A stretch of 64,000 nt of DNA, from the NCBI RefSeq assembly GCF_947648125.1, contig NZ_CANSMR010000001.1, forward strand, positions 620,001-684,000. Direction: 5' to 3'. The position numbers and the translations under genes are program-made. The notes under the pieces were generated by a model that did no database searches, had not been told where the DNA came from, and saw nothing but the letters and a program-made list of their open reading frames with translations. Shown one piece after another: positions 20,553 through 49,332 of the stretch; position 1 is the first letter of the stretch; every line of letters starts with the position of its first letter. Origin of the DNA: an uncultured Bradyrhizobium sp. GTDB taxonomy: Bacteria > Pseudomonadota > Alphaproteobacteria > Rhizobiales > Xanthobacteraceae.

Positions 20553-20582
20553 TTGAATGACGAGACACGCTGTTCGCGGGTC

Positions 20583-22153: not shown

Positions 22154-22178
22154 TGAGGGCGTTCTTTAGACGCCCTCA
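22154..22178 (+). terminator. Hairpin terminator between MFS gene and trbB
   Basis: A perfect 9-bp stem TGAGGGCGT (22154-22162) / ACGCCCTCA (22170-22178) with a 7-nt loop, followed by TTTGG. It should end transcription from the transporter gene, so trbB needs a promoter in or after this short stretch or depends on readthrough. Confidence 0.65.
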
Positions 22179-22194
22179 TTTGGTGAGGACGGCG

Positions 22195-23157: not shown

Positions 23158-23158
23158 T

Positions 23159-23748: not shown

Positions 23749-23756
23749 GCTCAGTC

Positions 23757-28511: not shown

Positions 28512-28616
28512 AACGCAGCCAAGCATCGCCTTAGCCACCCGCCGCAGGCGGCGACGGCTCAAACCATAAAGCCGCGCGACTTGACACCGATCACTCGATC
28601 CACTGGGGCAACATCG

Positions 28617-33409: not shown

Positions 33410-33492
33410 AATCCCTCCAAAGGTGATCATCACTCCTTTGAAGCGAGATTGTTGATGTGAGTCATTACCTGTGGTTGTAGGGGGCGTGCGTC

Positions 33493-34511: not shown

Positions 34512-35111
34512 TTAGAGGTCGCCGCGGCCGAGCAGCGCGTGTAGCGCAGCCTGCCGCATGATGGAGACGATTGACGCCTCGTCTAGGCCCTTCTTGAGTG
34601 TCGCCGCCGTGTTGAGCATGGAGAACACGCCCTGCGTTAGCAGTCGCGCCTCCGGTTCGGACAGGTCGGGCCGAAGCGGCATTACGACGGAAACCCACTC
34701 TTCGGCGTACAACGCCATCTCGCGCCGGATCCTTCTGTGGTCGTGTTCAGGAAGAGCGTGCTCGTTCTTTGTGAAGATGAGCGTGCTGGGTGGTCCCTTG
34801 AGAATCAACCGGATGTGCGACTCGACCATCGCCACGATGGCCGCCTTAGGTTCCGTCGTCGTTTCCGCGATCCGCTTTGCGATCCCGTGCACGATCTGCG
34901 TCGGCTCCTCCAGAACCGCGATCAGAAGTGCCTGCTTGTTCTGAAAGTGGCGATAAAGTCCGGGGCCGGTGATGCCCGCGCGTGCAGCGATCATCTCGAC
35001 AGTGACCGCGTCGTAGGAGTGCTGCAGGAAGAGCTCGGCGGCGACCGCGATCAACTGTGCGCGCCGCCCGCTGCTGTATGCCCGCTTGATCGGTAATGGC
35101 TGGATGCTCAT
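34512..35111 (-). CDS. TetR-family transcriptional repressor
   Basis: A 199-residue TetR protein: helix-turn-helix at residues ~16-62 (AQLIAVAAELFLQHSYDAVT, ARAGITGPGLYRHFQNKQAL) and an all-helical ligand domain. Start set at 35111 (MSIQPLPIKR) because the frame upstream lacks family similarity. Divergent from the flavin monooxygenase gene; the intergenic 7-8-7 inverted repeat at 35397-35418 is its probable operator. TetR proteins next to acyl-CoA ligase and crotonase genes often answer to acyl-CoA intermediates; that is only a suggestion here. Confidence 0.88.
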   Translation of the reverse strand: MSIQPLPIKRAYSSGRRAQLIAVAAELFLQHSYDAVTVEMIAARAGITGPGLYRHFQNKQALLIAVLEEPTQIVHGIAKRIAETTTEPKAAIVAMVESHIRLILKGPPSTLIFTKNEHALPEHDHRRIRREMALYAEEWVSVVMPLRPDLSEPEARLLTQGVFSMLNTAATLKKGLDEASIVSIMRQAALHALLGRGDL

Positions 35112-35443
35112 CGGGACGAACCGTACCACGCAGCGCACACGAAGCACCTTGCCATCCCTCGCGCCCGCGTCGTCTGTCCCAAGCTGAATGAACGGATCAC
35201 GTAAACATCTCGTTTCATCGGAATGTAAATCATGCCTAACTTTTTTGCGACGTCGCCTGGCCTCGGGTAAGGGCCTCGGCACCTTGTTGTACGCGCTTTG
35301 CTTTACAGCATTTCATATTTTTGCGAGAAATCTAGAAATATTCTATTCAAGGGCCCGGCTGACTGAAGGCTGTTGACAAGGCGATTCACTGAGCTCAATG
35401 TTAGTGCAGATTAACATTTTGGACTCAAATGGAGGCGCGACGC
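35112..35443. other. Divergent promoter region of the tetR/monooxygenase genes
   Basis: 332 bp without a gene. A good -35 hexamer TTGACA is at 35373-35378. GGAGG at 35431-35435 is the ribosome binding site of the monooxygenase gene. Confidence 0.5.
35397..35418. promoter_or_regulatory. Candidate TetR operator
   Basis: Perfect inverted repeat AATGTTA (35397-35403), 8-bp spacer, TAACATT (35412-35418). It overlaps the region where the -10 element of the TTGACA promoter would fall, just ahead of the first catabolic gene, a classical place for a TetR repressor site. Confidence 0.6.
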
Positions 35444-36667
35444 ATGCGGTTTGTCTTCTTTAGCGAGGGGGAGACCCCACCGGGACATACCCACGCGCGG
35501 CGCTACCGCGAGCTCATTGACGAGGTTCTGCTGGCGGAAAAAGTGGGCTTCGATGCGTTCGGGTGCTCGGAACAACACGTCGCGATTGGCACGGCCTCGA
35601 CCTCAGCCCCCGAAGTGATTTTTCCGTACTTGATGGCGCTGACCAGCAGGATCCAATTCATCCACCTGATCACGCCGCTGCCCAAGAAGATCAACCACGC
35701 GCTGCGCGTTGCGGAGCGGCTGGCGACCGAGGATATCCTGTCCAACGGCCGCGTCGCGCTTGGCGTCGGACGCGGCAACACCACCCTCGCGCTGCGCGCC
35801 TTCGAGGTTTCCCCCGACGAGACGCGGGGCCAGCAAATCGAAGGCATCGAGGTCATTCGCCGAGCCCTCGCGAACGACGTCTTCTCCTTCGTCGGAGAGC
35901 ACTACAAGATCCCGCCGCGCAGCCTGGTTCCCAAGCACGTTCAGCAGCCCTATCCGCCGATCCTGATGGCGACCGGAAGCCCGGAGTCGGTCACTGCTGC
36001 GGCCCGGATGGGCATCGGCGCCATGATGGGTGGCGGCTATAGCGGATTCGGCTCCGTGCAGAGGATGGCCGACCTCTACGACAAGGAGCTGGCGAGCGCC
36101 GAGCATGTGTACCCGGTGCAGGCGCAGAAGGTAGCGGTCGTGTCCGGCGGAATGCACTGCGCTGAGACGAGTGAGGAGGCGGAGCGGTGGGCGGCCACTC
36201 TGGCCGAGAGCGTCGCTCTGTCCATCGACGCCTACGAGCGGCTCTCGAAGCTGTCCAGCGACTATGCGAGCCTCGGAAAGATCAAGAACGTCGACTTCAG
36301 AAACCAACGCTACCTATTTGATGAGTCGGCCAGCTTCATCGTCGGGGATCCCAAGACCTGCATCGCCCAGGTTCAGCGGTTCGTCGACATAGGCATCGAC
36401 GCGATCGCGATGCGCGTCGACGGTCTCCCGCACCGGGAGTTGATGAAGTCCATCGAGCTCTTCGGCAATTACGTTATCCCTGCTTTCAAGAACCCCAGGT
36501 CGGTGGTGCGCAGGGCAGAGGAGATCCTTGCCGACATTCGAACCGCTCGCCCTGCCCACTATGCCGAAGTCGAGGCCCACCAGCGCGCCGCCGGAAAGAC
36601 CGACGAGACTGCTCCCAAGAAAGCCGACAAGGCCGTCGGCGCCGCCATGGTGGGAGAGACCCGATGA
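35444..36667 (+). CDS. Luciferase-like flavin-dependent monooxygenase
   Basis: A 407-residue TIM-barrel protein of the bacterial luciferase-like monooxygenase superfamily (MRFVFFSEGE, FDAFGCSEQHVAIG near residue 35, NGRVALGVGRGNTT near 98, PPILMATGSPESVTAAARMG near 168, VGDPKTCIAQVQRFVDIGID near 300). Uses reduced FMN from a separate reductase; the flavin reductase five genes down is the natural partner. It could carry out an oxygenative ring or C-N cleavage as RutA-type enzymes do; the substrate is unknown. The ATG at 35444 is chosen because GGAGG lies 8 bases ahead of it; an ATG at 35429 is in frame. The charged Lys/Ala-rich tail is unusual. Confidence 0.88.
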   Translation: MRFVFFSEGETPPGHTHARRYRELIDEVLLAEKVGFDAFGCSEQHVAIGTASTSAPEVIFPYLMALTSRIQFIHLITPLPKKINHALRVAERLATEDILSNGRVALGVGRGNTTLALRAFEVSPDETRGQQIEGIEVIRRALANDVFSFVGEHYKIPPRSLVPKHVQQPYPPILMATGSPESVTAAARMGIGAMMGGGYSGFGSVQRMADLYDKELASAEHVYPVQAQKVAVVSGGMHCAETSEEAERWAATLAESVALSIDAYERLSKLSSDYASLGKIKNVDFRNQRYLFDESASFIVGDPKTCIAQVQRFVDIGIDAIAMRVDGLPHRELMKSIELFGNYVIPAFKNPRSVVRRAEEILADIRTARPAHYAEVEAHQRAAGKTDETAPKKADKAVGAAMVGETR

Positions 36668-36753
36668 CCAACTTGCCCCACGACGACATCTTCGCGGAGG
36701 CCGGCAGGCCTTCCGTGAAAAGCGACCCTCGCGCTTCCATCGGCCCGCGATGA
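36664..36753 (+). CDS. 29-residue open frame coupled to the monooxygenase gene
   Basis: A short frame (MTNLPHDDIFAEAGRPSVKS...) that overlaps the preceding stop by ATGA. It resembles no family I know. It may be a remnant of a deleted gene or simply a chance frame in the 130-bp gap before the crotonase gene. Confidence 0.25.
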   Translation: MTNLPHDDIFAEAGRPSVKSDPRASIGPR

Positions 36754-36797
36754 GGACCGTTCGGTCATGATCACACGCTCGAGCAACTAGAGGAGCG

Positions 36798-37682
36798 ATG
36801 CATCAGATGACGGCTCCATCCACGCCAAACGAGAGCGAGGCGGCTACCGGGCTGCTGACGGTCGACCACGACGGTGTCGTGGTCGCAACGCTCAACAGGA
36901 GGCCGGCCAATGCGTTGAACCGTCCGCTGCTGCTCGCCATGACGGCGCTGTTCGGGGATCGTGGCGAGAGCGATCCGCCGCCGCTGGTGATCACCGGCGC
37001 CGGAAAGCGGTTCTTCTGCGTCGGCGGCGACATCAAGGAGGCGGATGGCCTCGCCGCTGACCCGATCGCGGACCGGATGCGGGCGTTCCACAACCTGCTG
37101 GTTGCGATGGAACGATACCCGGCTCCGGTGATCGCCGCCGTCAACGGCGACTGCGTCGGCGGCGGCGTGGAATACGCGCTCTTTGCGGACGCTGTGCTTG
37201 CCGTGCCTCACGCCAGGTTCGGATTTCCAGAGATCAGACATGGCCTTCTGCCTGCGGATAAAGGCATCCAGCGGCTCGTCCGACTGATCGGGATGCGGGC
37301 CGCGCGTGACCTGCTGCTGAGCGGGGAGCTCATCGGCGCTGACCAGGCGGCGCGGTTGGGTCTCGTCGACGCCATCGTCGAGCCGGACCGATTAGTGGCG
37401 GAAGCGCTCGGCCGAGCCCGCGAGGCCGGACGACGCGCGCCTGTCCTCTATGCGGCGCTCAAGCATACCGTGAACGACTACGACGACATTGAGAATCAAC
37501 AGCGAGCCGAAATGACGCTCGCCAAGGCTGCCTCCTGGTTCAATGACCCCGTGGCCCGGAGCCTCCGTGAAGGATGGAGGCAGGGTCGTGCGTTGTCGCG
37601 ACCTTCCGACGGAAGGCCGCCAGCGCTGAACACCACACCGAACGCAGGCCCGGCAGGTCTGCTTCACGAACCGGAGCGATGA
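36798..37682 (+). CDS. Enoyl-CoA hydratase/isomerase (crotonase) family protein
   Basis: A 294-residue crotonase: oxyanion-hole segments VITGAGKRFFCVGGDIKEAD near residue 65 and NGDCVGGGVEYALFADAVLA near 116, and a catalytic-region glutamate in FGFPEIRHGLLPADKG near 141. A 30-residue proline-rich C-terminal extension is beyond the family length. GAGGAG precedes the ATG. The next gene overlaps by ATGA. Probably hydrates or isomerises a CoA ester made by the ligase that follows. Confidence 0.85.
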   Translation: MHQMTAPSTPNESEAATGLLTVDHDGVVVATLNRRPANALNRPLLLAMTALFGDRGESDPPPLVITGAGKRFFCVGGDIKEADGLAADPIADRMRAFHNLLVAMERYPAPVIAAVNGDCVGGGVEYALFADAVLAVPHARFGFPEIRHGLLPADKGIQRLVRLIGMRAARDLLLSGELIGADQAARLGLVDAIVEPDRLVAEALGRAREAGRRAPVLYAALKHTVNDYDDIENQQRAEMTLAKAASWFNDPVARSLREGWRQGRALSRPSDGRPPALNTTPNAGPAGLLHEPER

Positions 37683-39586
37683 CAATGGTCACAAATCCCG
37701 CCCCCGCAGCCGCCGCCCGCACACAGCAGGTGCCAGTGCTGAGCGGCGTCGTCGACAGCGGCGTCGCCAACTTCGAGGCCGTCGAGCGAACCTTCGCCCA
37801 GATGGTGCAGGACCGAGCCGAGATCGAACCCGAGGAGGTCGCGTTCTGTCAATGGGACGGTACGCGCGCGATCCCGACCACGTGGGCGCAGTATGCCTCG
37901 GCCGTGCGCGAGGTGGCGCTCGGCCTGGCCGCCCTCGGCGTCACGCGCGGGGACAGGGTCGCCATCATGGCGCCAGGCCGGGGCGAGTGGGTGATAACGG
38001 CGCTCGGCATCCTCTCCGTCGGGGCGATCCCGGTGGGCGTCTACCCCACGAGCGCCGCCGTGGAGGTGAGGCAGCTCGCCGGGCACAGCGAAGCTGTCGC
38101 CATGGTCGTCGGAGACGATGCCGACGTCGCAAAGGTTGCCGCGGTCGCTGCGGAGCTTCCCGCGCTGCGGGCCGTGATCAGCTTCGACGGCGCTCCGTCG
38201 GGGCTGCCCGAGACGGTCGCCAGCAAGACTTGGGCCGACCTGCGCGAGGCCGGCCAAGCCCTCGACGAAACCAACCCGGCTCTGTTCGACTTCCTCCTCG
38301 ACGGTGGGGGCATCGATCAAACGGCGGCCTTGTTCTACACCTCAGGATCCACAGGAACCCCCAAGGGGGTCATCCATACCCACCGCACCCTGCAGTACTC
38401 GATACTCGGCTCCGTCGTTCTCAACCCCGAACTGACCAAGAGCCGCCGAGACTCAGTCAGTTTCCTGGGCCTGTCACACGTCTCTCCGGCCTTGTCCGGC
38501 GTTTTTGCGCCGATCATGACCCGGGCGGTGGTGACCTTCTGCCGCTTGGACCAGAGCTCCGAGGCCCTCCGCGGCGTACGTCCTACCGGGATCGTTTGGC
38601 CGCCGCGGCTTCATGAGAAGCTGCTCAGCGGCGCACTCTCGGCGATCAAAGCTTCGCCGGCATCCTTCCAAAAGTCCTACGAGGACGCGATGGCGGTGGC
38701 TCGAGAGGTCGCCGCCGCGCGCCGGCGCGGCGACATCGTGCCTGCCGAACTGCAAGCACGCTACGACAAGGCGCAGGAGCAGGTGTTCCTGCCCCTGCGC
38801 GCGAAGTTGGGCGTGGATCGGGTCGACGTCGCTTGGACCGCGTCGGGAGCGATGACCCCCGAGGTGCATGCCTTGTGGCAAATGTGGGGCTTGGATTTGC
38901 GCGAGCTCTACGGCACCACCGAGACCTGCGGTTGGGTCCTCGCGCAGTGGGACCGCGCCTTCCCACCTCCGGGATCCGTCGGCAAGGCGATGCCGGATCC
39001 GCGATTCGCGATCAAGATCAGCAGCGAGGGCGAGCTGATGGTGAAGGGGCCCCTGCTGTTCCGCGGCTACTGGAACGACCCGGAGGCGTCCGCGGCAGTG
39101 ATGGATGGGGAGTGGTACCGCACTGGCGACCTCGTCCAGGTCGACGCCTCCGGAGAGGTCAAGCTCATCGGTCGGGCCAAGGACATCATCGTCACCAGTG
39201 GCGGCAAGACCATTAGCCCGCAGCCCATCGAGGTGCGCCTCAAGGCAAGTCCCCTTGTCGAGGAGGCCGTGGTTGTCGGTGATGGCCGCAATTACCTCAC
39301 CGTCCTCATTTGGCCGACCGAGAAGGGCGGCAGGCTCAACAGGGATGCGCTGCATGAGGGCCTGCGATCCTGGATCGAGCAACTCAACGCCGAACTCGCG
39401 CGTCCCCTTCAGCTCAAGGACTTCCGTATCGCGCCACGTGCGCTCTCGCCCGGCGCGGGTGAGCTCACGTCCAAGGGCACGATCCGTCGAGCTGCGGTGC
39501 TGACCTCGTTCAGCGCGCTCGTCGACGAGATGTACAGCGCCGCGGAGCGCAACGAGTTCGCTGGCCAGGCGCGGCTCCAGGGCTGA
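37679..39586 (+). CDS. AMP-forming acyl-CoA synthetase (long-chain/FAA1-like)
   Basis: A 635-residue ANL ligase. The ATP-binding motif ALFYTSGSTGTPKGVIHTH is near residue 218, the LRELYGTTETCGW motif near 408, YRTGDLVQVD near 480, and the catalytic lysine region VTSGGKTISPQPIE near 505. The size and the domain between motifs match the long-chain acyl-CoA synthetase (FadD15/AMP-dependent) group rather than small-acid ligases. The substrate is unknown; it would activate a carboxylic acid formed by the upstream enzymes. Confidence 0.88.
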   Translation: MTMVTNPAPAAAARTQQVPVLSGVVDSGVANFEAVERTFAQMVQDRAEIEPEEVAFCQWDGTRAIPTTWAQYASAVREVALGLAALGVTRGDRVAIMAPGRGEWVITALGILSVGAIPVGVYPTSAAVEVRQLAGHSEAVAMVVGDDADVAKVAAVAAELPALRAVISFDGAPSGLPETVASKTWADLREAGQALDETNPALFDFLLDGGGIDQTAALFYTSGSTGTPKGVIHTHRTLQYSILGSVVLNPELTKSRRDSVSFLGLSHVSPALSGVFAPIMTRAVVTFCRLDQSSEALRGVRPTGIVWPPRLHEKLLSGALSAIKASPASFQKSYEDAMAVAREVAAARRRGDIVPAELQARYDKAQEQVFLPLRAKLGVDRVDVAWTASGAMTPEVHALWQMWGLDLRELYGTTETCGWVLAQWDRAFPPPGSVGKAMPDPRFAIKISSEGELMVKGPLLFRGYWNDPEASAAVMDGEWYRTGDLVQVDASGEVKLIGRAKDIIVTSGGKTISPQPIEVRLKASPLVEEAVVVGDGRNYLTVLIWPTEKGGRLNRDALHEGLRSWIEQLNAELARPLQLKDFRIAPRALSPGAGELTSKGTIRRAAVLTSFSALVDEMYSAAERNEFAGQARLQG

Positions 39587-39599
39587 GGAGGGACATGAG

Positions 39600-40376
39600 A
39601 TGAAGTATCCCAGGCGACCGAGGGAGCTGCGAATGGAGTATCTGACCAGCGCCGAGATCGTTGAGGCGATCGCCGGCGGCGCCCGTACGGCGATCCTTCC
39701 GCTGGGCGCGATCGAACAGCACGGACCTCATCTCCCGCTGTCAGTGGACAGCGATCACGCCGACGCCCTCGCGCTTCGCATCGCCAACAAGCTAGGCACT
39801 GCACTGGTCCTGCCCACGGTCAGGGTGGGGTACTCGCCCCACCACCTCGGCTTCGCCGGTACCCTCTCGGTGCGTCCCTCCACCTTGGAGGCGATCTGTA
39901 TGGATTACTGCAGCAGCCTGGCTGCGCACGGGTTCACCCGCGTCGTCCTCTTCTCCGGTCATATCGGCAACTATCCGATCATGCGCGACTTCGAGCCGCG
40001 GCTGGCTGCGGCGCTCACCCCGACACTTCAGGTCATCGTCTATAGAGACAGTGCCGCGATTCTGGACGCGTGGCGGAGGTCCGCGCAGTCGGTCGCTGGT
40101 CTGGGAAGCCACGTCGGTGGTCACGCAGACGTGGCGGAGACCTCGGTGATGCTCGTCCTGCACCCCGAAAGCGTTCGGGCAGACCGGGCGGCGGCGGGAT
40201 ACCTGGGCACGGTCGACGAGGAATTTCTGCATCGGGCGTTCGTCGACGGCATCGACGCGGTCTCGCCCAACGGTGTCCTCGGCGACCCCAAAGGGAGTTC
40301 GACAGCGATCGGCCACGCCGCACTGGATGCCGTGACCGATCTCGTGGTCGAGTACGCCACCGCGTACGGAGCGTGA
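39600..40376 (+). CDS. Creatininase-family amidohydrolase
   Basis: A 258-residue metalloenzyme of the creatininase family: PLGAIEQHGPHLPLSVDSDH near residue 34 carries the Glu, His and Asp metal ligands, SGHIGNYPI near 119 replaces the usual NGHGGN, and GGHADVAETSVML near 167 has the His and Glu of the second site. The family opens cyclic amides (creatinine, related rings). In this operon it may hydrolyse a lactam or amide made by the monooxygenase. GGAGGG precedes the ATG at 39600; 39633 is an alternative start with its own GGGAG. Confidence 0.85.
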   Translation: MKYPRRPRELRMEYLTSAEIVEAIAGGARTAILPLGAIEQHGPHLPLSVDSDHADALALRIANKLGTALVLPTVRVGYSPHHLGFAGTLSVRPSTLEAICMDYCSSLAAHGFTRVVLFSGHIGNYPIMRDFEPRLAAALTPTLQVIVYRDSAAILDAWRRSAQSVAGLGSHVGGHADVAETSVMLVLHPESVRADRAAAGYLGTVDEEFLHRAFVDGIDAVSPNGVLGDPKGSSTAIGHAALDAVTDLVVEYATAYGA

Positions 40377-40381
40377 GTCGC

Positions 40382-40879
40382 ATGCCATCCATGAGCGAGC
40401 AGATGGATAGCAGGATGCTGCGCGACGCTTTCGGCGCATTCCCGACCGGTGTGGTGGCGGTGGCGGCGCAGGTCGACGGGAGGCTGATGGGTCTCGCGGC
40501 CTCCTCGTTCGCCTCGGTCTCTCTCGAACCCCCGCTGGTGTCATTCTGTGTTGCGAAAGGCTCGTCCACGTGGCCCGAGCTGCGCAAAGCCGAGCACCTC
40601 GGTGTCACGGTGCTCGCCGAAGACCACGGCGCATTGTGCCGCCAGCTCGCCGGCCCGGCTCAGGAGCGGTTCAGCGGCATCGCCTTCGAGATCACTGATA
40701 GCGGTGCGGTGATGCTCACCGAGGGGATCGCCCAGTATGACTGCACTGTCCGCGAGGAGTTGGAGGCGGGCGATCACGTCATCGTGCTGCTCCAACTCCA
40801 TGCCGTCGTCGTCCATAGCCGCGGGCAGCCCCTCATCTTCCACCGCAGCGAGTTCGGAAGGCTGCAGCCGCAGACGTAA
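40382..40879 (+). CDS. Flavin reductase (RutF/HpaC-like)
   Basis: A 165-residue FMN-binding split-barrel reductase: LRDAFGAFPTGVVAVAAQVD near residue 12, GLAASSFASVSLEPPLVSFC near 36, and DHVIVLLQLHAVVV near the C-terminus. Supplies reduced flavin; the luciferase-like monooxygenase of the same cluster is the obvious customer. It begins 5 bp after the creatininase gene. Confidence 0.88.
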   Translation: MPSMSEQMDSRMLRDAFGAFPTGVVAVAAQVDGRLMGLAASSFASVSLEPPLVSFCVAKGSSTWPELRKAEHLGVTVLAEDHGALCRQLAGPAQERFSGIAFEITDSGAVMLTEGIAQYDCTVREELEAGDHVIVLLQLHAVVVHSRGQPLIFHRSEFGRLQPQT

Positions 40880-40907
40880 CCGACAGGGAAACAAAAGGAA
40901 AAGATCA

Positions 40908-41702
40908 ATGACACAGCATGGCTACAAGTATCTGATCATCGAGAAGCGCGACAGCGGCGTCGCCGTTGTGACGATGAACCGGCCGGATATTCTGAACGCG
41001 ATCAACTGGGAAATGCACGAGGAACTGGAGCAGGTCTTTGTGGATCTCGACAAGGACGAGTCCGTCCGTGCGATCGTTCTGACCGGTGCAGGCCGCGGCT
41101 TCTGCTCGGGGGGCGATCAGAAGTCGCTCGACACGGGGCTCGGCAAGGGCAAGGGTCCGTCGCCAACGAGGGGCGGACGCCACCTCATCCGCAATATGCT
41201 TGAGGTGGAGGTGCCACTTATCGGCGCCGTCAACGGCGTTGCTGTCGGTCTAGGTGCAACACTTGCATTGTTCTGCGACGTCATCTTCGCAAGCCCGACT
41301 GCGCGATTTGCCGATACCCATGTGACGGCCGGCGTGGTGGCCGGAGATGGTGGTGCCGTGATCTGGCCGCTGCTGATGGGACCGGTGCGAGCGAAACACT
41401 ATCTCATGACGGGCGAGTTCATTTCCGCGGAGAAGGCGGCGTCCATGGGGATGATCAACGAAGTCATTTCTGACCGGGACGTTAAGGACGCAGCCATCGA
41501 GTATGCCGAGATGCTCGCCGGCGGTCCGCAGAAGTCAATCATCTGGACCAAATACAGCATCAACAAGATTATCAAGCAGTATGCGCATCTGCTGCTCGAT
41601 ACGTCTGTTGCACTGGAGGCACTGACTTTCACGTCGCCAGAGCGACGCGAAGCTGTGGCCGCATTTGCAGAGAAGCGGAAGCGCTTTGCGGAGCGAGGAT
41701 GA
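40908..41702 (+). CDS. Second enoyl-CoA hydratase/isomerase family protein
   Basis: A 264-residue crotonase: VVTMNRPDILNAINWEMHEE near residue 20, VLTGAGRGFCSGGDQKSLD near 55, NGVAVGLGATLALFCDVIFA near 106. The usual catalytic-loop glutamate segment is replaced by FADTHVTAGVVAGDGGAVIW, so simple hydration chemistry is uncertain; an isomerase, lyase or thioesterase-like role is possible. AAAAGGAAAAG precedes the ATG. Unlike the first crotonase in the cluster, its codon style (by eye) is closer to the binding-protein gene that follows. Confidence 0.85.
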   Translation: MTQHGYKYLIIEKRDSGVAVVTMNRPDILNAINWEMHEELEQVFVDLDKDESVRAIVLTGAGRGFCSGGDQKSLDTGLGKGKGPSPTRGGRHLIRNMLEVEVPLIGAVNGVAVGLGATLALFCDVIFASPTARFADTHVTAGVVAGDGGAVIWPLLMGPVRAKHYLMTGEFISAEKAASMGMINEVISDRDVKDAAIEYAEMLAGGPQKSIIWTKYSINKIIKQYAHLLLDTSVALEALTFTSPERREAVAAFAEKRKRFAERG

Positions 41703-41738
41703 ATGTCGAATCCCTTGATGCACTGGAGGAGACATTAC

Positions 41739-42995
41739 ATGAAGAATTGCATCGGAAAGGAAATGAGAATGAGGACTGGGTTTCTGCATCTGGTCATCGC
41801 AATGGTGCTAACGATTACGCTGACGGTCTCACCGGCGAAAGCCCAGAAAAAATACGACCCCGGCGCCAGCGATGCGGAGATCAAGGTCGGTCAGACCATG
41901 CCATTCTCGGGGCCGGCATCGGCCTATGCCTCGATCGGCAAGACAGAGGCCGCCTATTTCAAGATGATCAACGATCAGGGCGGTATCAACGGCCGCAAGA
42001 TCAACCTGATTCAGTATGACGACGCCTATTCGCCGCCGAAGGCGGTGGAGCAGGTGCGCAAGCTCATTGAGAGCGACGAGGTGCTCCTGACTTTCCAGAT
42101 CCTCGGCACGCCTTCGAACGCAGCCGTGCAGAAATATCTCAATTCCAGGAAGGTGCCACAGCTGTTCGCGGCCGCCAGCGCCTCGAGGTTCTCCGATCCG
42201 AAAGACTTTCCGTGGACCATGGGCTATGACCCGAACAACTTTGTCGAGGGGCGCATCTACGGCCAGTTCATCCTGAAGGAGCATCCGGACGCCAGGATCG
42301 GCGTGCTTTATCAGAATGACGACTTCGGCAAGGATTATCTGAACGGCATCAAGGCGGGGCTCGGAGACAATGCCGCCAAGATGGTGGTCGCGGAAGCTGC
42401 CTACGAGGTGACCGATCCGGCCGTCGACTCGCAAGTCCTCAGGATCAAGGATGCCGGCGCCGACCTGTTCTTCATCGCCGCCACCCCGAAGCAGACGGCG
42501 CAGGCAATCAAGAAGACCGCTGAGATCGGGTGGCATCCGGTCCAGATCGTCGACATGAAGGCTAGCTCGGTCGGCAGCGTCCTGAAACCGGCCGGGCTTG
42601 AAAACGCCAAGGGTCTCATCAGCACCAATTACGGCAAGGAGCCGCTCGATCCGCAATGGAAGGACGATCCGGGCATAAAACGCTATCTGGCTTTCATGGA
42701 GAAGTACGATCCGGACGGGGACAAGAGCTCGAACTTCAACACCTATGCCTACAGCGCGGCACAGCTTCTGGTCCACGTGCTGCAGCAGTGCGGCGACAAC
42801 CTGACGCGCGAGAACGTCATGAAGCAGGCGGCCTCGCTCAAGAATGTCACGGGCGACCTCGCGCTGCCCGGGATCACGATCGACACCTCGCCGACCGACT
42901 ACCGCCTCCACAAACGGTTGCAGATGATGCGGTTCAACGGCGAACGCTGGGAGCTGTTCGGCCCAATCCTGGAGGTCGCGGGGCCTGCGGGCTAG
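41739..42995 (+). CDS. ABC transporter substrate-binding protein (Leu/Ile/Val-binding type)
   Basis: A 418-residue exported binding protein. The signal sequence ends at SPAKAQ near residue 36; the periplasmic-binding fold shows IKVGQTMPFSGPASAYASIG near 49, INGRKINLIQYDDAYSP and IGVLYQNDDFGKDYLNGIKAG near 190. GGAGGA precedes the ATG at 41739. Permease and ATPase genes are absent from the window, so it must work with a distant transporter. A strong terminator closes the operon behind it. Confidence 0.88.
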   Translation: MKNCIGKEMRMRTGFLHLVIAMVLTITLTVSPAKAQKKYDPGASDAEIKVGQTMPFSGPASAYASIGKTEAAYFKMINDQGGINGRKINLIQYDDAYSPPKAVEQVRKLIESDEVLLTFQILGTPSNAAVQKYLNSRKVPQLFAAASASRFSDPKDFPWTMGYDPNNFVEGRIYGQFILKEHPDARIGVLYQNDDFGKDYLNGIKAGLGDNAAKMVVAEAAYEVTDPAVDSQVLRIKDAGADLFFIAATPKQTAQAIKKTAEIGWHPVQIVDMKASSVGSVLKPAGLENAKGLISTNYGKEPLDPQWKDDPGIKRYLAFMEKYDPDGDKSSNFNTYAYSAAQLLVHVLQQCGDNLTRENVMKQAASLKNVTGDLALPGITIDTSPTDYRLHKRLQMMRFNGERWELFGPILEVAGPAG

Positions 42996-43105: not shown

Positions 43106-43573
43106 TCAGCGGCGTATGATCTTCTTGAGGATTTCGGTAAGTGTTCGAAATTCTTCCCGGGTCAAGGGAGCGAACGTCTCGCTTGAAATCTCACCGACCG
43201 TTTCGATTGCGGCGTCCGCCACTCGTCTGCCCTTGTCGGTCAAATCGACCTCCCGCCGTCGCGGATCCAAAGGATCCTCGGAACTCGTTATAAGGCCGCG
43301 TAATTTGAGACGATTAATAACGCCGGTAATGGTAGCCGAGTCGTAGTGTATAAGGCGTCCCAAATGGTTTTGCGAACAAGGTCCGACCTCCCTCAATTTC
43401 GCCAGCGTTGAGAATTGGGGCGCCGTCAATTCTTCAATCATCTTCGCGGCAAAGATGGCTGTGTGAGTACGGAGCGCGACGCGCAGCAAGAAGCCCGGTG
43501 CGTCATCCAGCCTGTATGACTGTGCAGCTTCTTTTTTCTTTTCCACCGAGCGCCGCTTCGTTTTCGTTTGCAC
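43106..43573 (-). CDS. nicR: MarR-family regulator (NicR-like)
   Basis: A 155-residue MarR protein: AKMIEELTAPQFSTLAKLRE, winged helix LIHYDSATITGVINRLKLRG near residue 79, and the wing EDPLDPRRREVDLTDKGRR. Divergent from the nicotinate hydroxylase operon. In Pseudomonas putida the MarR protein NicR represses the nic genes and is released by 6-hydroxynicotinate; the same role is likely here. The symbol is by context. Confidence 0.8.
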   Translation of the reverse strand: MQTKTKRRSVEKKKEAAQSYRLDDAPGFLLRVALRTHTAIFAAKMIEELTAPQFSTLAKLREVGPCSQNHLGRLIHYDSATITGVINRLKLRGLITSSEDPLDPRRREVDLTDKGRRVADAAIETVGEISSETFAPLTREEFRTLTEILKKIIRR

Positions 43574-43977: not shown

Positions 43978-46236
43978 ATGTCGGCAACTGACCAAATGAG
44001 CTCCGTTCGACCAGACCTGATCGAGAAGGTCACGGGGCGCGCCGAATACATTACCGACCTGACGGTCCCGGGGATGCTGCACGGATTTGTGGTTCGTTCG
44101 CCGGCCGTTCATGCCCGCATCGTTTCGATCGACACGAGCGCAGCCCGTTCGATGGACGGCGTCGTGGACGTGCTTGTCGGCAAGGATGTCGCCTCGTTCG
44201 GGCGCTGGGGCGTTGTGCTCAAGGACCGGCCCATCATTGCTACCGACCGTGTGCGATATGTAGGCGAACCCGTCGCCGTGGTGATCGCTGAAACAATCGA
44301 GATCGCGGAAAACGCCGCAGAACTAGTTGATATCGAATACGATGAGCTTCCGCGCGCGACGACCATCCAGGAGGCCATGGCGGAAGACGCGCCGCTGATC
44401 CATGAACGCCACGAAAATCTTCAGGACTTCTATTTCAAGGGTGGCGCCAAGCCGACGCAAGGTAGCAACATCTTCCACACCTACCGCAGCAATGTCGGCG
44501 ATGTCGACGCCGCCGAGGCGGCCGCTGCCTACGTTCACGAGGATCACTTCACGTTTCCAGCCATCTCTCACTTTGCGATGGAGCCGCACACGGTCATCGC
44601 GGACTTCAAGGGCGATTCCCTCACAGTCTGGGCCGGTGCGCAGACGCCGACCGCGGTTCAAAAGGTGCTGTCGCGCCTGTTCGGTCTGCAGTTGGCCAAG
44701 GTCCGTGTCATCGTCCCTTTCGTCGGCGGCGGCTTCGGCGGCAAGGCCTCAGTGAAGATCGAGCCGCTGGTGGCGGCCGCTTCGTGGAAGGTGCAGCGCG
44801 CTGTCCGCGTGGCCCAATCGATTTCCGATTCGATGCTGACCTGCCGAAGGCTCGGGGCCGACGTCACGATTCGCACGGCCGTGGACGCAAAGGGACGAAT
44901 CCTCGCCAAGAGCGCCAAACTGCTACTCGATGGCGGCGCCTATTCCGACACGGGTTCGGCTGTCGCTACCAAATCAGCCAATCGCATCATTGGCCCCTAT
45001 GCGGTGCCGAACCTGCGCCTCGAGGCCTCGGCTATCTATACCAACACCGTTCCCGGCGCCGCCTTCCGTTCTATCGGCGGGCCGCAGGCTGTCTGGGCCA
45101 AAGAATCCCATATGGACAATGTCGCTGCGGCCATCGGCATGGATCCGGCCGAGTTCCGGTTGAAGAACCTCGCTGCCCGTGGTGAGCGCACACGGCCCGA
45201 TCTCCGTGCGCTCGACATGGACATGAGTGAGCTGATGGGCCGTGTGACCCAGTCGTTCGCATCGGACTCGCAGGCTTCGAATCGGCGGCCTCGCGGAATG
45301 GCGGTCGCCGCGACCGATCCGGCGAACACGCCGATCGCCAACGCGATCGTCCGTCTCAAGATCGATGGATCGATCCTGGTTTCGGTCTCCAGCGTCGAAG
45401 TCGGCCAGGGCGCGCATGCAACCATGGCCCGGATCGCCGCGCAGACGCTGAAGCAGCCGTTCTCCGCAGTCAGCACCTTGCGCGCAGATACGGCCGTCGC
45501 CCCATACGACTGGGGCACGGGCGCGAGCCGATCGACCGTCGTGGTCGGCCTGTCGGTCGAGAATGCTGCGCTCGATGCCGCCGATCAGATCCTCGACATG
45601 GTCATGGATGTCTGGGAGCTTCCCAAGGAGAGTCTGTCGCTCGTCGAGGGGGGGGTCTCTACCGGGTCGGAGGTTCTGACCTTCCATCAGATCTTCCACC
45701 GCACGCTCGGCGTCGACTCCGGGGAGGTCGTCGGGCGTGGCGCGATCACGCCGCGTTCGAAGAAAGGCGCGCTGGCCGAGTCACCGCTGTTCTGGGAAAC
45801 ATCCGCGGGCCTTGCCGAAATCGTCGTCGATGAGGACACCGGCGAGATTCGCGTGCCACGTTACGCGAGCGCCGCCGACGTCGGGCGCGTGATCAATCGC
45901 GTCGCCGCGGAAGGCCAGGACGAGGGCGCCGCCACCATGGGCTTCGGACACGCGCTCTACGAACAGCTAGAATTCGAGGACGGTCAACCCATCAACGCGA
46001 CGCCAATCGACTACATGATCCCGCGCATTTCGGACGTGCCGCCGGTGTTTGACACCATCCTGGTCGAGAATGGCGACGGGCCGGGCCCGGGCGGCGCCAA
46101 AGGAATGGGTGAAGGAGCAATCCTGCCCGTCGCGCCGGCGATCGCCAATGCGCTGTTCTCGGCCTACGGCATCCGAATTACGGATCTCCCCATGACGCCT
46201 GAAAAGGTATGGCGCGCCTTGCAGAAGAGAAAGTGA
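43978..46236 (+). CDS. Molybdopterin-binding subunit of nicotinate hydroxylase (xanthine dehydrogenase family)
   Basis: A 752-residue large subunit of the xanthine dehydrogenase family: YITDLTVPGMLHGFVVRSPA near residue 22, RVRYVGEPVAVVIAET near 90, PFVGGGFGGKASVKIEPLVA near 245, AAFRSIGGPQAVWAKES near 360, and the catalytic glutamate segment GAKGMGEGAILPVAPAIANA near 710. With the FAD and 2Fe-2S subunits downstream it forms a three-subunit hydroxylase, expected to convert nicotinate to 6-hydroxynicotinate since NicC, NicX, NicD and NicF follow. The P. putida enzyme is organised differently (NicA plus a cytochrome-linked NicB). Start at 43978 is tentative; 43996 is possible. Confidence 0.85.
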   Translation: MSATDQMSSVRPDLIEKVTGRAEYITDLTVPGMLHGFVVRSPAVHARIVSIDTSAARSMDGVVDVLVGKDVASFGRWGVVLKDRPIIATDRVRYVGEPVAVVIAETIEIAENAAELVDIEYDELPRATTIQEAMAEDAPLIHERHENLQDFYFKGGAKPTQGSNIFHTYRSNVGDVDAAEAAAAYVHEDHFTFPAISHFAMEPHTVIADFKGDSLTVWAGAQTPTAVQKVLSRLFGLQLAKVRVIVPFVGGGFGGKASVKIEPLVAAASWKVQRAVRVAQSISDSMLTCRRLGADVTIRTAVDAKGRILAKSAKLLLDGGAYSDTGSAVATKSANRIIGPYAVPNLRLEASAIYTNTVPGAAFRSIGGPQAVWAKESHMDNVAAAIGMDPAEFRLKNLAARGERTRPDLRALDMDMSELMGRVTQSFASDSQASNRRPRGMAVAATDPANTPIANAIVRLKIDGSILVSVSSVEVGQGAHATMARIAAQTLKQPFSAVSTLRADTAVAPYDWGTGASRSTVVVGLSVENAALDAADQILDMVMDVWELPKESLSLVEGGVSTGSEVLTFHQIFHRTLGVDSGEVVGRGAITPRSKKGALAESPLFWETSAGLAEIVVDEDTGEIRVPRYASAADVGRVINRVAAEGQDEGAATMGFGHALYEQLEFEDGQPINATPIDYMIPRISDVPPVFDTILVENGDGPGPGGAKGMGEGAILPVAPAIANALFSAYGIRITDLPMTPEKVWRALQKRK

Positions 46237-46240
46237 ATTC

Positions 46241-46690
46241 ATGGAATTCAATATGTCGATGCTGGTGCCGGCGACGCCAGAGGATCTCTGGAAGACGTTG
46301 ATTGACGTGCCCAGCATCTCGTCCTGTATCCCCGGATGCGAGGACGTCGAAGAGATCGCGCGGCTGGAATCCTACAAGGCGACGGTCAAGCAGAAGATCG
46401 GGCCTTTCAAGCTCGAAGTGCCGGCCGAGATCCTTGTCGAGTCGGTGACGGAGCCGTCTCACGTCCGCACTCGTGCCACGGGCCGCGACAAAATCACCGG
46501 GACCAGGCTCGCGGTCATCCTCGACGTCAGCGTGATTCCGGAAGACTCGGGCTCCAAGCTGGCCGTCGACGCGAAGGTCGACATCCAGGGGCGCCTGGCG
46601 ACCATGGGACTCGGGATCATCAGACGCCGCGTTGACCAGAATTTCGAGGAATTCGAGGCGCGACTCAAAAACCTGCTAGGCGCGGCCTGA
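46241..46690 (+). CDS. CoxG-like SRPBCC protein
   Basis: A 149-residue CoxG-family protein: VPATPEDLWKTLIDVPSISS, then CIPGCEDVEEIARLESYKAT and FKLEVPAEILVESVTEP. CoxG proteins accompany molybdenum hydroxylases and are thought to help with membrane attachment or maturation. It is placed inside the hydroxylase operon between large and FAD subunits, 4 bp after the former. There is no hydrophobic C-terminal anchor, unlike full CoxG, so membrane recruitment is doubtful. Confidence 0.85.
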   Translation: MEFNMSMLVPATPEDLWKTLIDVPSISSCIPGCEDVEEIARLESYKATVKQKIGPFKLEVPAEILVESVTEPSHVRTRATGRDKITGTRLAVILDVSVIPEDSGSKLAVDAKVDIQGRLATMGLGIIRRRVDQNFEEFEARLKNLLGAA

Positions 46691-46692
46691 TC

Positions 46693-47562
46693 ATGCTGAC
46701 GACTCCTTTCGAATTTGAGAGGGCATCCACCATCGCCGACGCCATCAGGGCGGTCGGGCAGGAGGGCGACGGCATGTTTTATTCCGGCGGCACCGAATTG
46801 CTGCTGGCGATGAAGATGCGCGTCATCCATACCGAGCGGCTTATCGACATCAAGGGAATCCCCGGCCTCGATCGCATCGTCCTGAACGACGCGAACGAGC
46901 TGGAAATCGGCTCGCGCTGCACGCACGCAAAGATCGCGGGCGATCCCGTCATTCGCGAACATGTGCCGGCGCTGGCCTCGCTCTGTGCCGATGTGGCGAA
47001 CGTCCGGGTCCGCAGCGTCGGAACAATCGGCGGCAATCTGTGCTTCGGCGAGCCGCATGCGGATCCGCCAACGATGCTCGGGGCGTTGGATGCGCGGCTG
47101 GTGCTTCAAGGTCCGAGCGGCACCCGCTTGGTCCACGCCGACGATTTTATCCGGAGCGAGCTGGAAACGGTGCGGGAGCCCGACGAGTTGCTGACGCGCG
47201 TGGTGTTTCCGCGCCCTGCCGGGCCCGTGACCTATCGGCGGTTCAAGCACGGTGAGAGGCCCTCGGTGAACGTCGCCATGGCCTGGTCGCTGGACGCCAA
47301 CGGAAGGAGGATCAGAAGCGCCCGCGTGCGGGTCGGAGCGCTCGGTTCGCGACCTCAGCCCTTGAAGGCAGTTGAAGAAGCCCTCCAGGGCATATCCGTC
47401 GCCGAGGTTCGCCCGGCTATCGAGGCGGTGCTCCCGACGGCACTGGATGAGCTTGAAGTCAATGAGGATAGGCATGGCGGCGCCGACTATAAGCGCCATC
47501 TTGCAGGTGTCTTGCTGCTGCGAAACGCCGAAGAGGCCATCGCAGCAGGCGGGTGCGCATGA
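46693..47562 (+). CDS. FAD-binding subunit of the molybdenum hydroxylase
   Basis: A 289-residue medium subunit of the xanthine dehydrogenase family: YSGGTELLLAMKMRVIHTER near residue 30 (FAD diphosphate loop), NVRVRSVGTIGGNLCFGEPH near 104, and the CO dehydrogenase flavoprotein C-terminal domain from ~175. Transfers electrons between the 2Fe-2S subunit and the acceptor. Confidence 0.9.
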   Translation: MLTTPFEFERASTIADAIRAVGQEGDGMFYSGGTELLLAMKMRVIHTERLIDIKGIPGLDRIVLNDANELEIGSRCTHAKIAGDPVIREHVPALASLCADVANVRVRSVGTIGGNLCFGEPHADPPTMLGALDARLVLQGPSGTRLVHADDFIRSELETVREPDELLTRVVFPRPAGPVTYRRFKHGERPSVNVAMAWSLDANGRRIRSARVRVGALGSRPQPLKAVEEALQGISVAEVRPAIEAVLPTALDELEVNEDRHGGADYKRHLAGVLLLRNAEEAIAAGGCA

Positions 47563-47563
47563 C

Positions 47564-48052
47564 ATGACGTATGCGCTGCCAATTTCATTCTCGTTGAATG
47601 GCCAGGCGACCGCGATCGAGGTTCCGACCCATACGCTGTTGATCGATCTGATCCGCGATCGCCTTGGCCTAAAGGGGACCAAGCGTTCCTGCGACATGGA
47701 AGTGTGCGGCGCTTGCACCGTTCTGCTCGACGGTGAACCGATATCGAGTTGCACCACACTCGCCGTCGATGTCGATCGGCGGGAAGTCACGACAATTGAG
47801 GGCGTGACGCCGCCCGATGGCCTATCACGGATTCAGAAGGCGTTCGTACTTCACGGCGGCCTTCAGTGCGGCTTCTGCACGCCGGGCTTCATTATGGCGG
47901 TCACAGCATTGCTGAAGGCGACGCCGCACCCGACCGATGAAGAAATCCGTCACTACCTGCACGGCAACCTCTGCCGTTGCACGGGATACACCAAGATTTT
48001 CGTAGCCGTAAGGAGCCTTGCCGCCGGGCAAGTCTCCGAAGATGCCGCTTAA
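47564..48052 (+). CDS. 2Fe-2S subunit of the molybdenum hydroxylase
   Basis: A 162-residue small subunit with both iron-sulfur centres: the plant ferredoxin-type cluster C43-x4-C48-x2-C51-x11-C63 and the second cluster from QCGFCTPGF and LCRCTGY. The ATG at 47564 follows the FAD-subunit stop by one base, giving the usual family length; the frame upstream overlaps the FAD gene and is discarded. Confidence 0.92.
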   Translation: MTYALPISFSLNGQATAIEVPTHTLLIDLIRDRLGLKGTKRSCDMEVCGACTVLLDGEPISSCTTLAVDVDRREVTTIEGVTPPDGLSRIQKAFVLHGGLQCGFCTPGFIMAVTALLKATPHPTDEEIRHYLHGNLCRCTGYTKIFVAVRSLAAGQVSEDAA

Positions 48053-48090
48053 TCCGTTGCGAGACAGCGCAATTATCGTTTGGAGATGTC

Positions 48091-49332
48091 ATGAGCATTG
48101 AACAGGTCAGCAAATCAAGCGTCCTCATTGCCGGCGCCGGCATCGGCGGTTTAGCGATGGCGCTGTCACTGCTCCGTCGCGGCATCGATTGTGACGTACT
48201 TGAGCAAGCGTCCGAGTTGCGCGAGGTGGGAGCCGGCCTTTGGATCTCCATGAACGGCGTGCGCGTTCTTCGGGATCTTGGCCTCACCGAACAGGTCGAG
48301 CAAAACTGCATAGCGGCCGAGCGACGCTCGATTCGGCTGTGGAACACCGGGGATAGGTGGCCGCTCTACAACCGCAGCTCCGATGCAGCGCGCAATCAAC
48401 CCTATCTGCTGCTGCGCGCTCACCTGCTGAAGATCCTGGTTGACGGCGTGCGCCAGTTGAAGCCGGGCGCCATTCATCTGAACGCCCACGTTGTCGGGTT
48501 CAGTCAAAACGGCGAAGGGGTACGGGCCAAGCTCGCTGACAGCTCCGAAGTCGAAGGGCGCGCCCTGATCGGCGCTGACGGTGCTCATTCGAAGGTCCGT
48601 CTTGGCCTTATCGGCAAGATCGAGAGCCAGTACACGAAGACCATCGCCTGGCGCGGCCTTGTGCCGGTCGACCGCCTTGCGCCGCATCAGCGCGAACCCG
48701 AGGTGGCAACATGGATTGGGCCCACCGCGCATGTCACGGCCTACCCGGTCCGCTGGCAGAACACGGTGATGATGACCTTTTCGGGCCAGGTCGACCATGA
48801 CGATTGGCTTCTCGAATCCTGGTCGGAGAGCGGTTCGGTCGAGGAATGCCTAAAGGACTTTGAGGGTTGGCATCCGGACATCGTCGACTTGGTCAAGAAC
48901 GTCGATACCCTGAACAAATGGGGCCTATTCGTGCGGCCGTCGCTGGCTAGCTGGTCGAAGGGGCGCGTTACCCTGCTTGGCGACGCCTGCCATTCGATGC
49001 TGCCGTACCTCGGGCAGGGCGTGAACATGGCGCTGGAGGATGCATCAGTCCTCGCCCGTTGCCTCGATGAGAATCCCAACGACGTCGCGGCGGTATTCGA
49101 GGCATATCAAAGTCTCCGGCTCGATCGCACCAGCAAGGTCGTGAAGTCGGCGGCCGGCATGCTGCCGATCTTCCATAACAAGGCGTTGTGCAAGCCGGAG
49201 ACGGCGGGTGATTACATCAAGACGCAGTGGTCATCGGAAGCAACATCCGCACGCTACGACTGGATCTACCGGTACGACGCGACCACCATTCCTCTTCACT
49301 CCGCCGACGAACATAACTGGAGCGGGCAATGA
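48091..49332 (+). CDS. nicC: 6-hydroxynicotinate 3-monooxygenase NicC (FAD-dependent)
   Basis: A 413-residue single-component flavin hydroxylase: dinucleotide fold GAGIGG at residues 15-20, the DG motif ALIGADGAHSKVR near 157, and the GD motif LLGDACHSMLPYLGQG near 295. NicC decarboxylates and hydroxylates 6-hydroxynicotinate to 2,5-dihydroxypyridine using NADH and O2. Slightly longer than the Pseudomonas enzyme. The family also includes salicylate hydroxylases; the call depends on NicX, NicD and NicF lying next to it. TGGAGA precedes the ATG; overlaps nicF by ATGA. Confidence 0.85.
   Translation: MSIEQVSKSSVLIAGAGIGGLAMALSLLRRGIDCDVLEQASELREVGAGLWISMNGVRVLRDLGLTEQVEQNCIAAERRSIRLWNTGDRWPLYNRSSDAARNQPYLLLRAHLLKILVDGVRQLKPGAIHLNAHVVGFSQNGEGVRAKLADSSEVEGRALIGADGAHSKVRLGLIGKIESQYTKTIAWRGLVPVDRLAPHQREPEVATWIGPTAHVTAYPVRWQNTVMMTFSGQVDHDDWLLESWSESGSVEECLKDFEGWHPDIVDLVKNVDTLNKWGLFVRPSLASWSKGRVTLLGDACHSMLPYLGQGVNMALEDASVLARCLDENPNDVAAVFEAYQSLRLDRTSKVVKSAAGMLPIFHNKALCKPETAGDYIKTQWSSEATSARYDWIYRYDATTIPLHSADEHNWSGQ

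Follow-up and report, generated by a model that had tools for sequence, protein, structure and literature searches.

Which compound is broken down by an operon that brings together a luciferase-like monooxygenase (LLM), a creatininase-family protein, an acyl-coenzyme A (acyl-CoA) ligase and two crotonases? We focused on such an operon in a 64,000 nucleotide stretch of DNA from an uncultured Bradyrhizobium sp. (the window; contig 1, positions 620001-684000, of an 8.57 Mb genome, G000). The original prediction named no known pathway. It proposed that an N-heterocycle or lactam is opened by oxidation and cyclic amide hydrolysis, followed by activation of the acid and beta-oxidation. N-heterocycle opening by the operon is supported by its gene content and relatives. 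Our preferred reading, to which we give an even chance, is that the operon would open an N-heteroaromatic acid aerobically and in a CoA-dependent way, thereby feeding the cell. The likeliest substrate is fusaric acid (5-butylpicolinate), a Fusarium toxin. The relevant features are as follows.

34512..35111, minus strand: TetR-family regulator, divergent from the operon (Pfam TetR_N)
35373..35418, plus strand: predicted promoter (TTGACA at 35373) and presumed TetR operator palindrome AATGTTAGTGCAGATTAACATT at 35397-35418 (from the sequence)
35444..36667, plus strand: luciferase-like FMNH2-dependent monooxygenase, proposed ring opener (Pfam Bac_luciferase, E 7.4e-45; longest open reading frame (ORF) from 35429)
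36798..37682, plus strand: crotonase 1 (ECH1), both hydratase glutamates kept (Pfam ECH_1)
37679..39586, plus strand: AMP-forming acyl-CoA ligase, proposed to activate the substrate (Pfam AMP-binding and AMP-binding_C_3; longest ORF from 37574)
39600..40376, plus strand: creatininase-family metal hydrolase, proposed deformylase (Pfam Creatininase)
40391..40879, plus strand: flavin reductase, presumed reductase component of a two-component monooxygenase (Pfam Flavin_Reduct)
40908..41702, plus strand: crotonase 2 (ECH2), proposed C-C bond hydrolase (Pfam ECH_1)
41703..42995, plus strand: periplasmic binding protein of the branched-chain amino acid type (Pfam Peripla_BP_6)

From the LLM gene to the binding protein gene, all genes run in the same direction and in the order listed. 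Gaps are short, the biggest being 130 bases between the monooxygenase and ECH1. Coding score and conservation were used to revise the starts of TetR (35111), the LLM (35444) and ECH2 (40908). The first two are most likely correct and are preferred over the longest-ORF starts. The ligase start at 37679 was set from the sequence, where an ATGA overlaps the ECH1 stop. All eight proteins exceed the Pfam gathering scores, which confirms the families first named for this cluster (Bac_luciferase 154 bits, ECH_1 141 and 177, AMP-binding 195, Creatininase 214, Flavin_Reduct 116, Peripla_BP_6 203 and TetR_N 62). The same scan identified no acyl-CoA dehydrogenase, hydroxyacyl-CoA dehydrogenase, thiolase or amidase-family gene in the operon. 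No NCBIfam match reached its cut-off among the matches listed, the best 25 being considered for any protein with more. Hence, "creatininase" and "enoyl-CoA hydratase" are used here as family names only.

A search across genomes, proposed as a check of the original prediction, found the set conserved in Bradyrhizobium. Using a threshold of E 1e-60, the creatininase-family protein was matched at 48 places in 42 of 265 genomes. These places are of two types. Type A comprises 10 places, including the window's own, with 88-100% creatininase identity. Type B comprises 38 places in 37 genomes, with 48-53% identity; five genomes have both. All 10 type A loci encode the LLM, ECH1, ECH2, hydrolase, reductase and binding protein. 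In one of them (G006, locus L060), the ligase gene between ECH1 and the hydrolase was not detected and is seemingly absent. The ECH2 gene lies between those for the LLM and ECH1 in seven type A loci, and between those for the reductase and binding protein in the other three (the window, RD5-C2 and BR 10289). DNA was returned for 20 of the 38 type B places; in all 20, genes for ECH1, the creatininase and an LLM 39-44% identical to that of the window are adjacent. Type B loci, unlike the window operon, have branched-chain amino acid-type permease and ATPase genes.

Outside Bradyrhizobium, annotated plasmids of Streptomyces sp. SAT1, Azospirillum oryzae, Burkholderia cepacia ATCC 25416 and Paraburkholderia caledonica carry the set. 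It was also found by gene calling in Rhodococcus opacus VOC-14 and Burkholderia arboris. Type B is also present in Azospirillum, Burkholderia and Paraburkholderia. Within Bradyrhizobium, a plasmid of Bradyrhizobium sp. 195 is annotated with the set. The window ligase is 59% identical to that of R. opacus VOC-14, 47% to that of Streptomyces SAT1 and 33% to that of type B. The LLM was detected in 8 of 385 genomes of a class sample at E 1e-80, its own included, and in 1 of 398 genomes of a phylum-wide sample at E 1e-70, that genome being its own. Hence, the cluster is rare. A doubled cluster in G126 is an artefact arising where overlapping stretches were joined, and was left uncounted.

The LLM matches PF00296 at 154.1 bits, against a gathering cut-off of 27.9, over profile positions 1-313 of 314. 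It fits no named NCBIfam subfamily among the best 25 of its 26 matches, the best being TIGR03858 (103 bits against 462). All 10 type A loci, the window's included, have a PF01613 flavin reductase gene. The LLM and reductase are presumed to form a two-component flavin monooxygenase, since a separate reductase is encoded alongside; both families, as originally predicted, are found by Pfam. The pyridine-opening enzymes PyrA and TgnA are also LLMs.

The window LLM is 38% identical to that of the tpd locus of R. opacus 1CP. There, the LLM gene is accompanied by those for TpdB, an amidase and a LuxR-type regulator. The regulator gene is 2364 nt long, which matches the length stated for tpdR in a tetramethylpyrazine promoter paper (PMC6099782). 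Related LLMs, at 50-51% identity, occur in Arthrobacter sulfonylureivorans and Pseudonocardia. Besides the LLM, these loci encode a crotonase and a ligase, with an amidase replacing the creatininase, and a Rid-family hydrolase, for which Rid model scores fall below cut-off. An LLM accompanied by an amidase and Rid would be expected if ring opening of an N-heterocycle yielded an N-acyl enamine for later deacylation and hydrolysis. The plasmid loci of A. sulfonylureivorans (L049) and an ant-associated Pseudonocardia (L050) also have an aldehyde dehydrogenase gene, and the LLM-crotonase-ligase-amidase-aldehyde dehydrogenase-Rid set is a further uncharacterised variant. Separately, a ribB gene recurs with LLM clusters (L051 3303-4379, L052 13883-15013, L119 2166-3314, L054 4119-5267 and L118 688-1791), as if extra flavin synthesis belonged to the pathway. 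This is compatible with fusaric acid as the substrate without proving it.

The two crotonases differ in their predicted active sites. Both glutamates of classical enoyl-CoA hydratases, which we take to be Glu144 and Glu164 of the rat enzyme, are found in ECH1 (25 of 25 rows, after dropping rows below 35% identity or containing a stop). In ECH2, Thr and His stand at those places, as judged by eye from compared sequences. His138 and Asp147 of ECH2 are invariant in 13 of 13 diverse sequences, and an H-x8-D motif is present in 39 of 39 ECH2 rows of at least 35% identity. The pair corresponds to profile positions 136 and 145. Positions 3-237 of the profile align to residues 12-246 of 6-oxocamphor hydrolase (1szo), with an offset of 9 at both ends and compensating gaps possible in between. 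Hence, the His/Asp pair probably falls at 6-oxocamphor hydrolase positions 145 and 154, which are presumably catalytic. ECH2 matches 6-oxocamphor hydrolase at 7.2e-31 and beta-diketone hydrolase at 6.5e-31. These residues and matches suggest that ECH2 is a C-C hydrolase and not a hydratase.

The creatininase-family hydrolase retains an ExH...D, H and distal Glu pattern in 46 of 46 rows kept, some of which come from overlapping loci. The HxEN motif of creatininase reads HxGN, with Gly replacing Glu. The protein scores below the cut-offs for both creatininase (TIGR04448, 111.4 bits against 235) and mycofactocin MftE (TIGR03964, 138.1 bits against 172). Creatinine and mycofactocin pathways were rejected because the hydrolase misses these family cut-offs. 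By analogy, we propose that the protein may be a deformylase; a creatininase-family formylpyrimidine deformylase is a precedent for this role.

The genes beside type B clusters suggest what ring opening may yield. In three type B islands (G088, G186 and G151), the LLM cluster is followed by genes for an AraC-type regulator, the E1, E2 and E3 proteins of a complex, and the beta and alpha subunits of propionyl-CoA carboxylase. Next come the small and large subunits of methylmalonyl-CoA mutase, a lipoamide dehydrogenase fragment and pyridine genes. The order in a fourth island (G035) is consistent as far as read. Families were assigned by scanning the G151 copies and E1 of Bradyrhizobium sp. 195; others were assigned by similarity, place and size. 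The island E1 passes TIGR03186 (1532 bits, cut-off 1408) and is named mdeB on annotated plasmids. MdeB acts on 2-oxobutyrate. Scores above cut-off were obtained for the carboxylase alpha subunit (NF006367) and the large mutase subunit (NF006944), but not for the carboxylase beta or small mutase subunit. In all six island genomes searched, the island mutase is one of two copies. Many type B copies thus adjoin genes that, judged by family, would convert 2-oxobutyrate to succinyl-CoA. The lipoamide dehydrogenase fragment, a C-terminal piece of 178-179 amino acids (L105 12363-12899), occupies the same place in four type B islands (that of L105 and the equivalents in G088, G186 and G035). It is either a remnant or a small functional protein.

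Similar genes accompany the cluster elsewhere. Both B. cepacia and B. arboris have an E1-E2-E3 set flanking it. The gene table for P. caledonica is incomplete; it lists E2 and E3 but has a blank where E1 would be. Paraburkholderia, Azospirillum, B. cepacia and R. opacus encode a second acyl-CoA synthetase nearby; a thiolase and FUSC/HlyD-type efflux genes adjoin the cluster in Azospirillum. The extra synthetase, thiolase and FUSC/HlyD genes are compatible with fusaric acid, without proving it.

The scheme that best accounts for these genes begins with the ligase, which would make fusaryl-CoA. The LLM and flavin reductase would then open the ring at C5-C6. This would give an N-formyl enamide with a ketone on the former C5 (2-formamido-5-oxonon-2-enoyl-CoA). 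ECH2 would hydrolyse the C4-C5 bond in a vinylogous retro-Claisen reaction, releasing valerate and 2-formamidocrotonyl-CoA. ECH1 would remove or reposition the thioester part, and the creatininase-family hydrolase would release formate. Finally, 2-aminocrotonate would collapse to ammonia and 2-oxobutyrate. In type B islands, genes of the same island would take 2-oxobutyrate through propionyl-CoA and methylmalonyl-CoA to succinyl-CoA. The window's host would need enzymes encoded elsewhere; its genome does encode, on another contig, a carboxylase beta subunit that shares 94% identity with the island copy. For fusaric acid, the carbon balance closes (10 = 1+5+4, for formate, valerate and 2-oxobutyrate). 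We chose this compound because it is an N-heteroaromatic acid that gives a four-carbon 2-oxo acid and an alkanoate, and is common around roots.

The order of steps now proposed, namely activation, oxygenation with ring opening, C-C bond hydrolysis and deformylation, replaces that originally suggested. Opening of an N-heterocycle, as first envisaged, is retained, given the 38% identity to the tpd LLM, the amidase/Rid loci and linkage to pyridine genes described below. Lactam or cyclic amide hydrolysis and ordinary beta-oxidation are not retained. We place slightly under an even chance on the full account: CoA-dependent pyridine opening by activation, an LLM, crotonase cleavage of a vinylogous beta-diketone-like C-C bond and creatininase-family enamide deformylation, taking fusaric acid to valerate and 2-oxobutyrate. 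This account includes two distant versions of the pathway, with that of the window coming from actinobacteria and carried on a conjugative element.

Several observations weigh against fusaric acid as the substrate and against the roles assigned. The substrate is deduced from downstream genes, which are not universal. Among 12 genomes searched, mdeB-type E1 was absent at E 1e-100 from four (the window's own, G018, G036 and G037) and lay far from the cluster in two more (G147 and G240). Close to the R. opacus cluster lie E1 and E2 genes whose products are just 27% and 35% identical to the type B proteins. No such complex was found in the stretches read around the clusters of Streptomyces SAT1, Azospirillum and three rhizobial f35 loci. 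The FUSC pump was seen at one locus only, in Azospirillum, and FUSC pumps export many aromatic acids. EchA15-like crotonases have the same His/Asp pair and outscore 6-oxocamphor hydrolase as matches to ECH2. Hence, the likeness of ECH2 to 6-oxocamphor hydrolase is a lead, not proof. The roles of 6-oxocamphor hydrolase residues 145 and 154, the activity of MdeB on 2-oxobutyrate and the creatininase-family deformylase precedent are all general background rather than results obtained here.

Two further features lie downstream of the operon and provide its context.

43106..43573, minus strand: gene labelled MarR by its position next to the pyridine genes, outside the operon (orthologue beside nicB in four other type A loci, L008, L009, L010 and G018)
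43996..51957, plus strand: pyridine-carboxylate pathway via 2,5-dihydroxypyridine (Pfam families)

The gene labelled MarR has no NCBIfam match at E 1e-20. Within the pyridine pathway, NicX matches 2,5-dihydroxypyridine dioxygenase (7cn3) at E 1.1e-80 over residues 10-346 of 352. The NicC-like protein is nearer to tropone 2-monooxygenase (1.1e-63) than to 6-hydroxynicotinate 3-monooxygenase (6.6e-51). Hence, nicotinate may not be the entry compound, and picolinate is a possible alternative. The pathway also includes a three-subunit molybdenum hydroxylase and a CoxG-like protein. Maleate isomerase was not named among the window ORFs scanned, which were part of the total.

A close NicX occurs in 27 Bradyrhizobium genomes, and in 23 of these no more than 35 kb separates the pyridine genes from the cluster creatininase; both types contribute. 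For this count, 27 NicX matches of at least 77% were kept and 19 weaker ones (34-50%) were dropped. Of the four remaining genomes, G240 has the two loci 978 kb apart, G006 has them on different contigs, and G133 and G224 have no cluster at the cut-off. G133 retains ribB, Lrp and livH remnants. The operon is surrounded by a replication initiator, a DUF3363 relaxase-type gene, Trb/VirB transfer genes (16332-31530) and a LuxI/LuxR quorum-sensing pair (32777-34221); similar genes flank the cargo in other Bradyrhizobium. The original claim that a pyridine-ring pathway adjoins the operon on the same mobile element fits both the NicX match and the transfer genes. Type A (window, RD5-C2 and BR 10289) and type B (G186 and G035) clusters are alike in position, with LuxI/LuxR- or Trb-type genes on one side and the pyridine genes on the other. 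Hence, we read these as one conjugative element family with variable cargo, suggesting a cargo site. Further along the window are genes for a 1003 amino acid FAD/Fe-S oxidase related to the D-2-hydroxyglutarate dehydrogenase YdiJ (57020-60031; below cut-off), a BhcA-like aminotransferase (60979-62178; below cut-off) and an MFS transporter. This separate possible catabolic set is also present in G036.

Could the operon serve a different purpose? The evidence for ring opening and for a C-C hydrolase fits equally if the substrate is another N-heteroaromatic acid, such as a different alkylpicolinate or a pyrazine or pyrrole acid. Such a compound would undergo CoA activation, LLM opening, C-C hydrolysis and deamidation to a 2-oxo acid. 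The sequence does not fix the side chain, and types A and B may differ in it, their LLMs being 39-44% alike. However, the 2-oxobutyrate route and the extra fatty-acid-type ligase best suit a butyl side chain, and no other common natural compound is known to us with an equal carbon balance. We consider another acid rather unlikely. A type II Baeyer-Villiger reaction is improbable. In that case, the LLM would insert oxygen into a terpenoid-like cyclic ketone acid and the creatininase-family enzyme would open the lactone. Diketocamphane monooxygenases are likewise LLMs with a flavin reductase, ECH2 matches a terpene enzyme in 6-oxocamphor hydrolase, and CoA ligases serve terpene breakdown. Conversely, 3,6-diketocamphane monooxygenase ranks only 13th of 33 for the LLM profile (65 bits, against 130 for the top chain), and the amidase, Rid and pyridine-gene neighbours indicate nitrogen.

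Those pyridine genes raise the alternative that the operon feeds them, by trimming the side chain of a larger pyridine compound to nicotinate or picolinate. The 23 of 27 linkage, shared by types A and B, would fit, but it does not represent 23 independent events because the carriers are apparently one family of conjugative elements. Furthermore, the stretches read from Burkholderia, Paraburkholderia, Azospirillum, Streptomyces and Rhodococcus have no match to the window pyridine genes, and type B possesses its own downstream route. We think a feeder role very improbable. More remote still is the originally proposed degradation of a lactam or cyclic amide followed by ordinary beta-oxidation. 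Membership of the creatininase family is in its favour, but the hydrolase is under the creatininase and MftE cut-offs, with one creatininase Glu being Gly. Neither the dehydrogenases nor the thiolase of beta-oxidation are among the operon genes, and ECH2 resembles a C-C hydrolase. Some named pathways were also considered and rejected. In passages of the skatole paper, the oxygenase is of group E, not an LLM. The indole and indole-acetate pathways were set aside, with no creatininase among the indole-acetate papers listed. Passages of the 4-hydroxypyridine paper describe different chemistry. Our literature searches found nothing on this gene set in the papers listed, and nothing usable on LLM pyridine ring opening or 6-oxocamphor hydrolase residues. 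Opening of an N-heteroaromatic acid, with fusaric acid the foremost candidate, is thus the reading that we carry forward.

How might such an operon be controlled? A TetR orthologue occupies the same position in 9 of 10 type A loci; none was seen in the exception, G256. The regulator is 62% identical to that of R. opacus VOC-14 and 53% to that of Streptomyces SAT1. The palindrome at 35397-35418 begins exactly at the start coordinate originally given for the cluster, and ATGTTA-N8-TAACAT occurs once in the whole window. In an alignment of 11 loci, this motif is exact in five (the window, RD5-C2, S69, G018 and Streptomyces SAT1), where it lies 24-25 bases past the start of a TTGAC box. Five further type A loci have one mismatch. 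No good operator match was found for R. opacus in this alignment; a near-match there was rejected, having at least 2 of 12 mismatches and a different place on counting. TetR would repress the operon via the palindrome.

The trees separate the history of the LLM from that of ECH2. In the LLM tree (45 rows), the 10 type A proteins group together (100/100) beside those of R. opacus (100/98) and Streptomyces (100/98), while 25 type B proteins stand apart (100/100). The root is a midpoint for drawing only, and two outermost rows carry a long-branch warning. The closest kin of type A LLMs outside Bradyrhizobium are thus actinobacterial copies, from Rhodococcus and Streptomyces. In the ECH2 tree (40 rows, with those below 35% left out), rhizobial, Azospirillum and Burkholderia-type proteins fall together. 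Set apart from them are the R. opacus and Streptomyces proteins, along with those of four further alphaproteobacterial LLM loci. ECH2 of the window is nested among Bradyrhizobium type B ECH2s (100/98 and 98/95). On these branching patterns, the type A operon seems to be an import from actinobacteria in which ECH2 was swapped for a proteobacterial one, and in the window's lineage for a type B one. Conservation of the presumed TetR operator agrees in part with this import. Since ECH2 was exchanged between types A and B while the LLMs were not, both versions are suggested to need the same ECH2 reaction.

If correct, our interpretation would explain at the level of genes, and in a testable way, how a Fusarium wilt toxin is consumed by soil and root bacteria. 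It would account for an unnamed operon of alphaproteobacteria, betaproteobacteria and actinobacteria, and extend the creatininase and crotonase families by new reactions. Furthermore, it would mean that toxin-breakdown genes move on conjugative elements among root-nodule bacteria. The original statement that no named pathway has this set may be mistaken, with fusaric acid degradation the likely name. Fusaric acid degradation in Burkholderia ambifaria T16 was reportedly described by Vinacour et al. in 2023 (doi 10.1128/aem.00630-23). The proposed substrate is the same, and relatives of the window cluster lie on Burkholderia plasmids. Degradation by T16 may involve a flavin monooxygenase and propionyl-CoA metabolism. 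If the T16 work already covers the same genes, the host group, the actinobacterial variant and the detailed mechanism alone would be new. For another fusaric-acid-degrading Burkholderia, IMCC1007, the genome note puts forward fusC and nic genes as candidates, untested by its authors.

Parts of the scheme resemble other known systems. The creatininase-family hydrolase shares its Pfam family and most metal-site residues with creatininase and MftE, but scores below both cut-offs and has Gly for the HxEN Glu. ECH2 matches 6-oxocamphor hydrolase and beta-diketone hydrolase, yet is nearer to EchA15-like and many enoyl-CoA hydratase-type chains. PyrA, TgnA and RutA, acting on pyridine, trigonelline and pyrimidine, are two-component flavin LLMs that likewise open an N-heterocycle to an amide, which is later hydrolysed. 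Unlike the pathway proposed here, those systems are not known to be CoA-dependent. The RutF model scores 64 bits on the window reductase, against a cut-off of 255. The tpd locus of Rhodococcus likewise combines an LLM oxygenase with an amide hydrolase and a flavin reductase encoded separately. The window operon does not follow the tpdA-tpdB-amidase order and differs from the R. opacus 1CP locus. An amidase there stands against a creatininase-family enzyme here, and a large LuxR-type regulator against TetR. In addition, no CoA ligase or crotonase lies alongside in the R. opacus 1CP stretch read, whereas the window operon encodes both.

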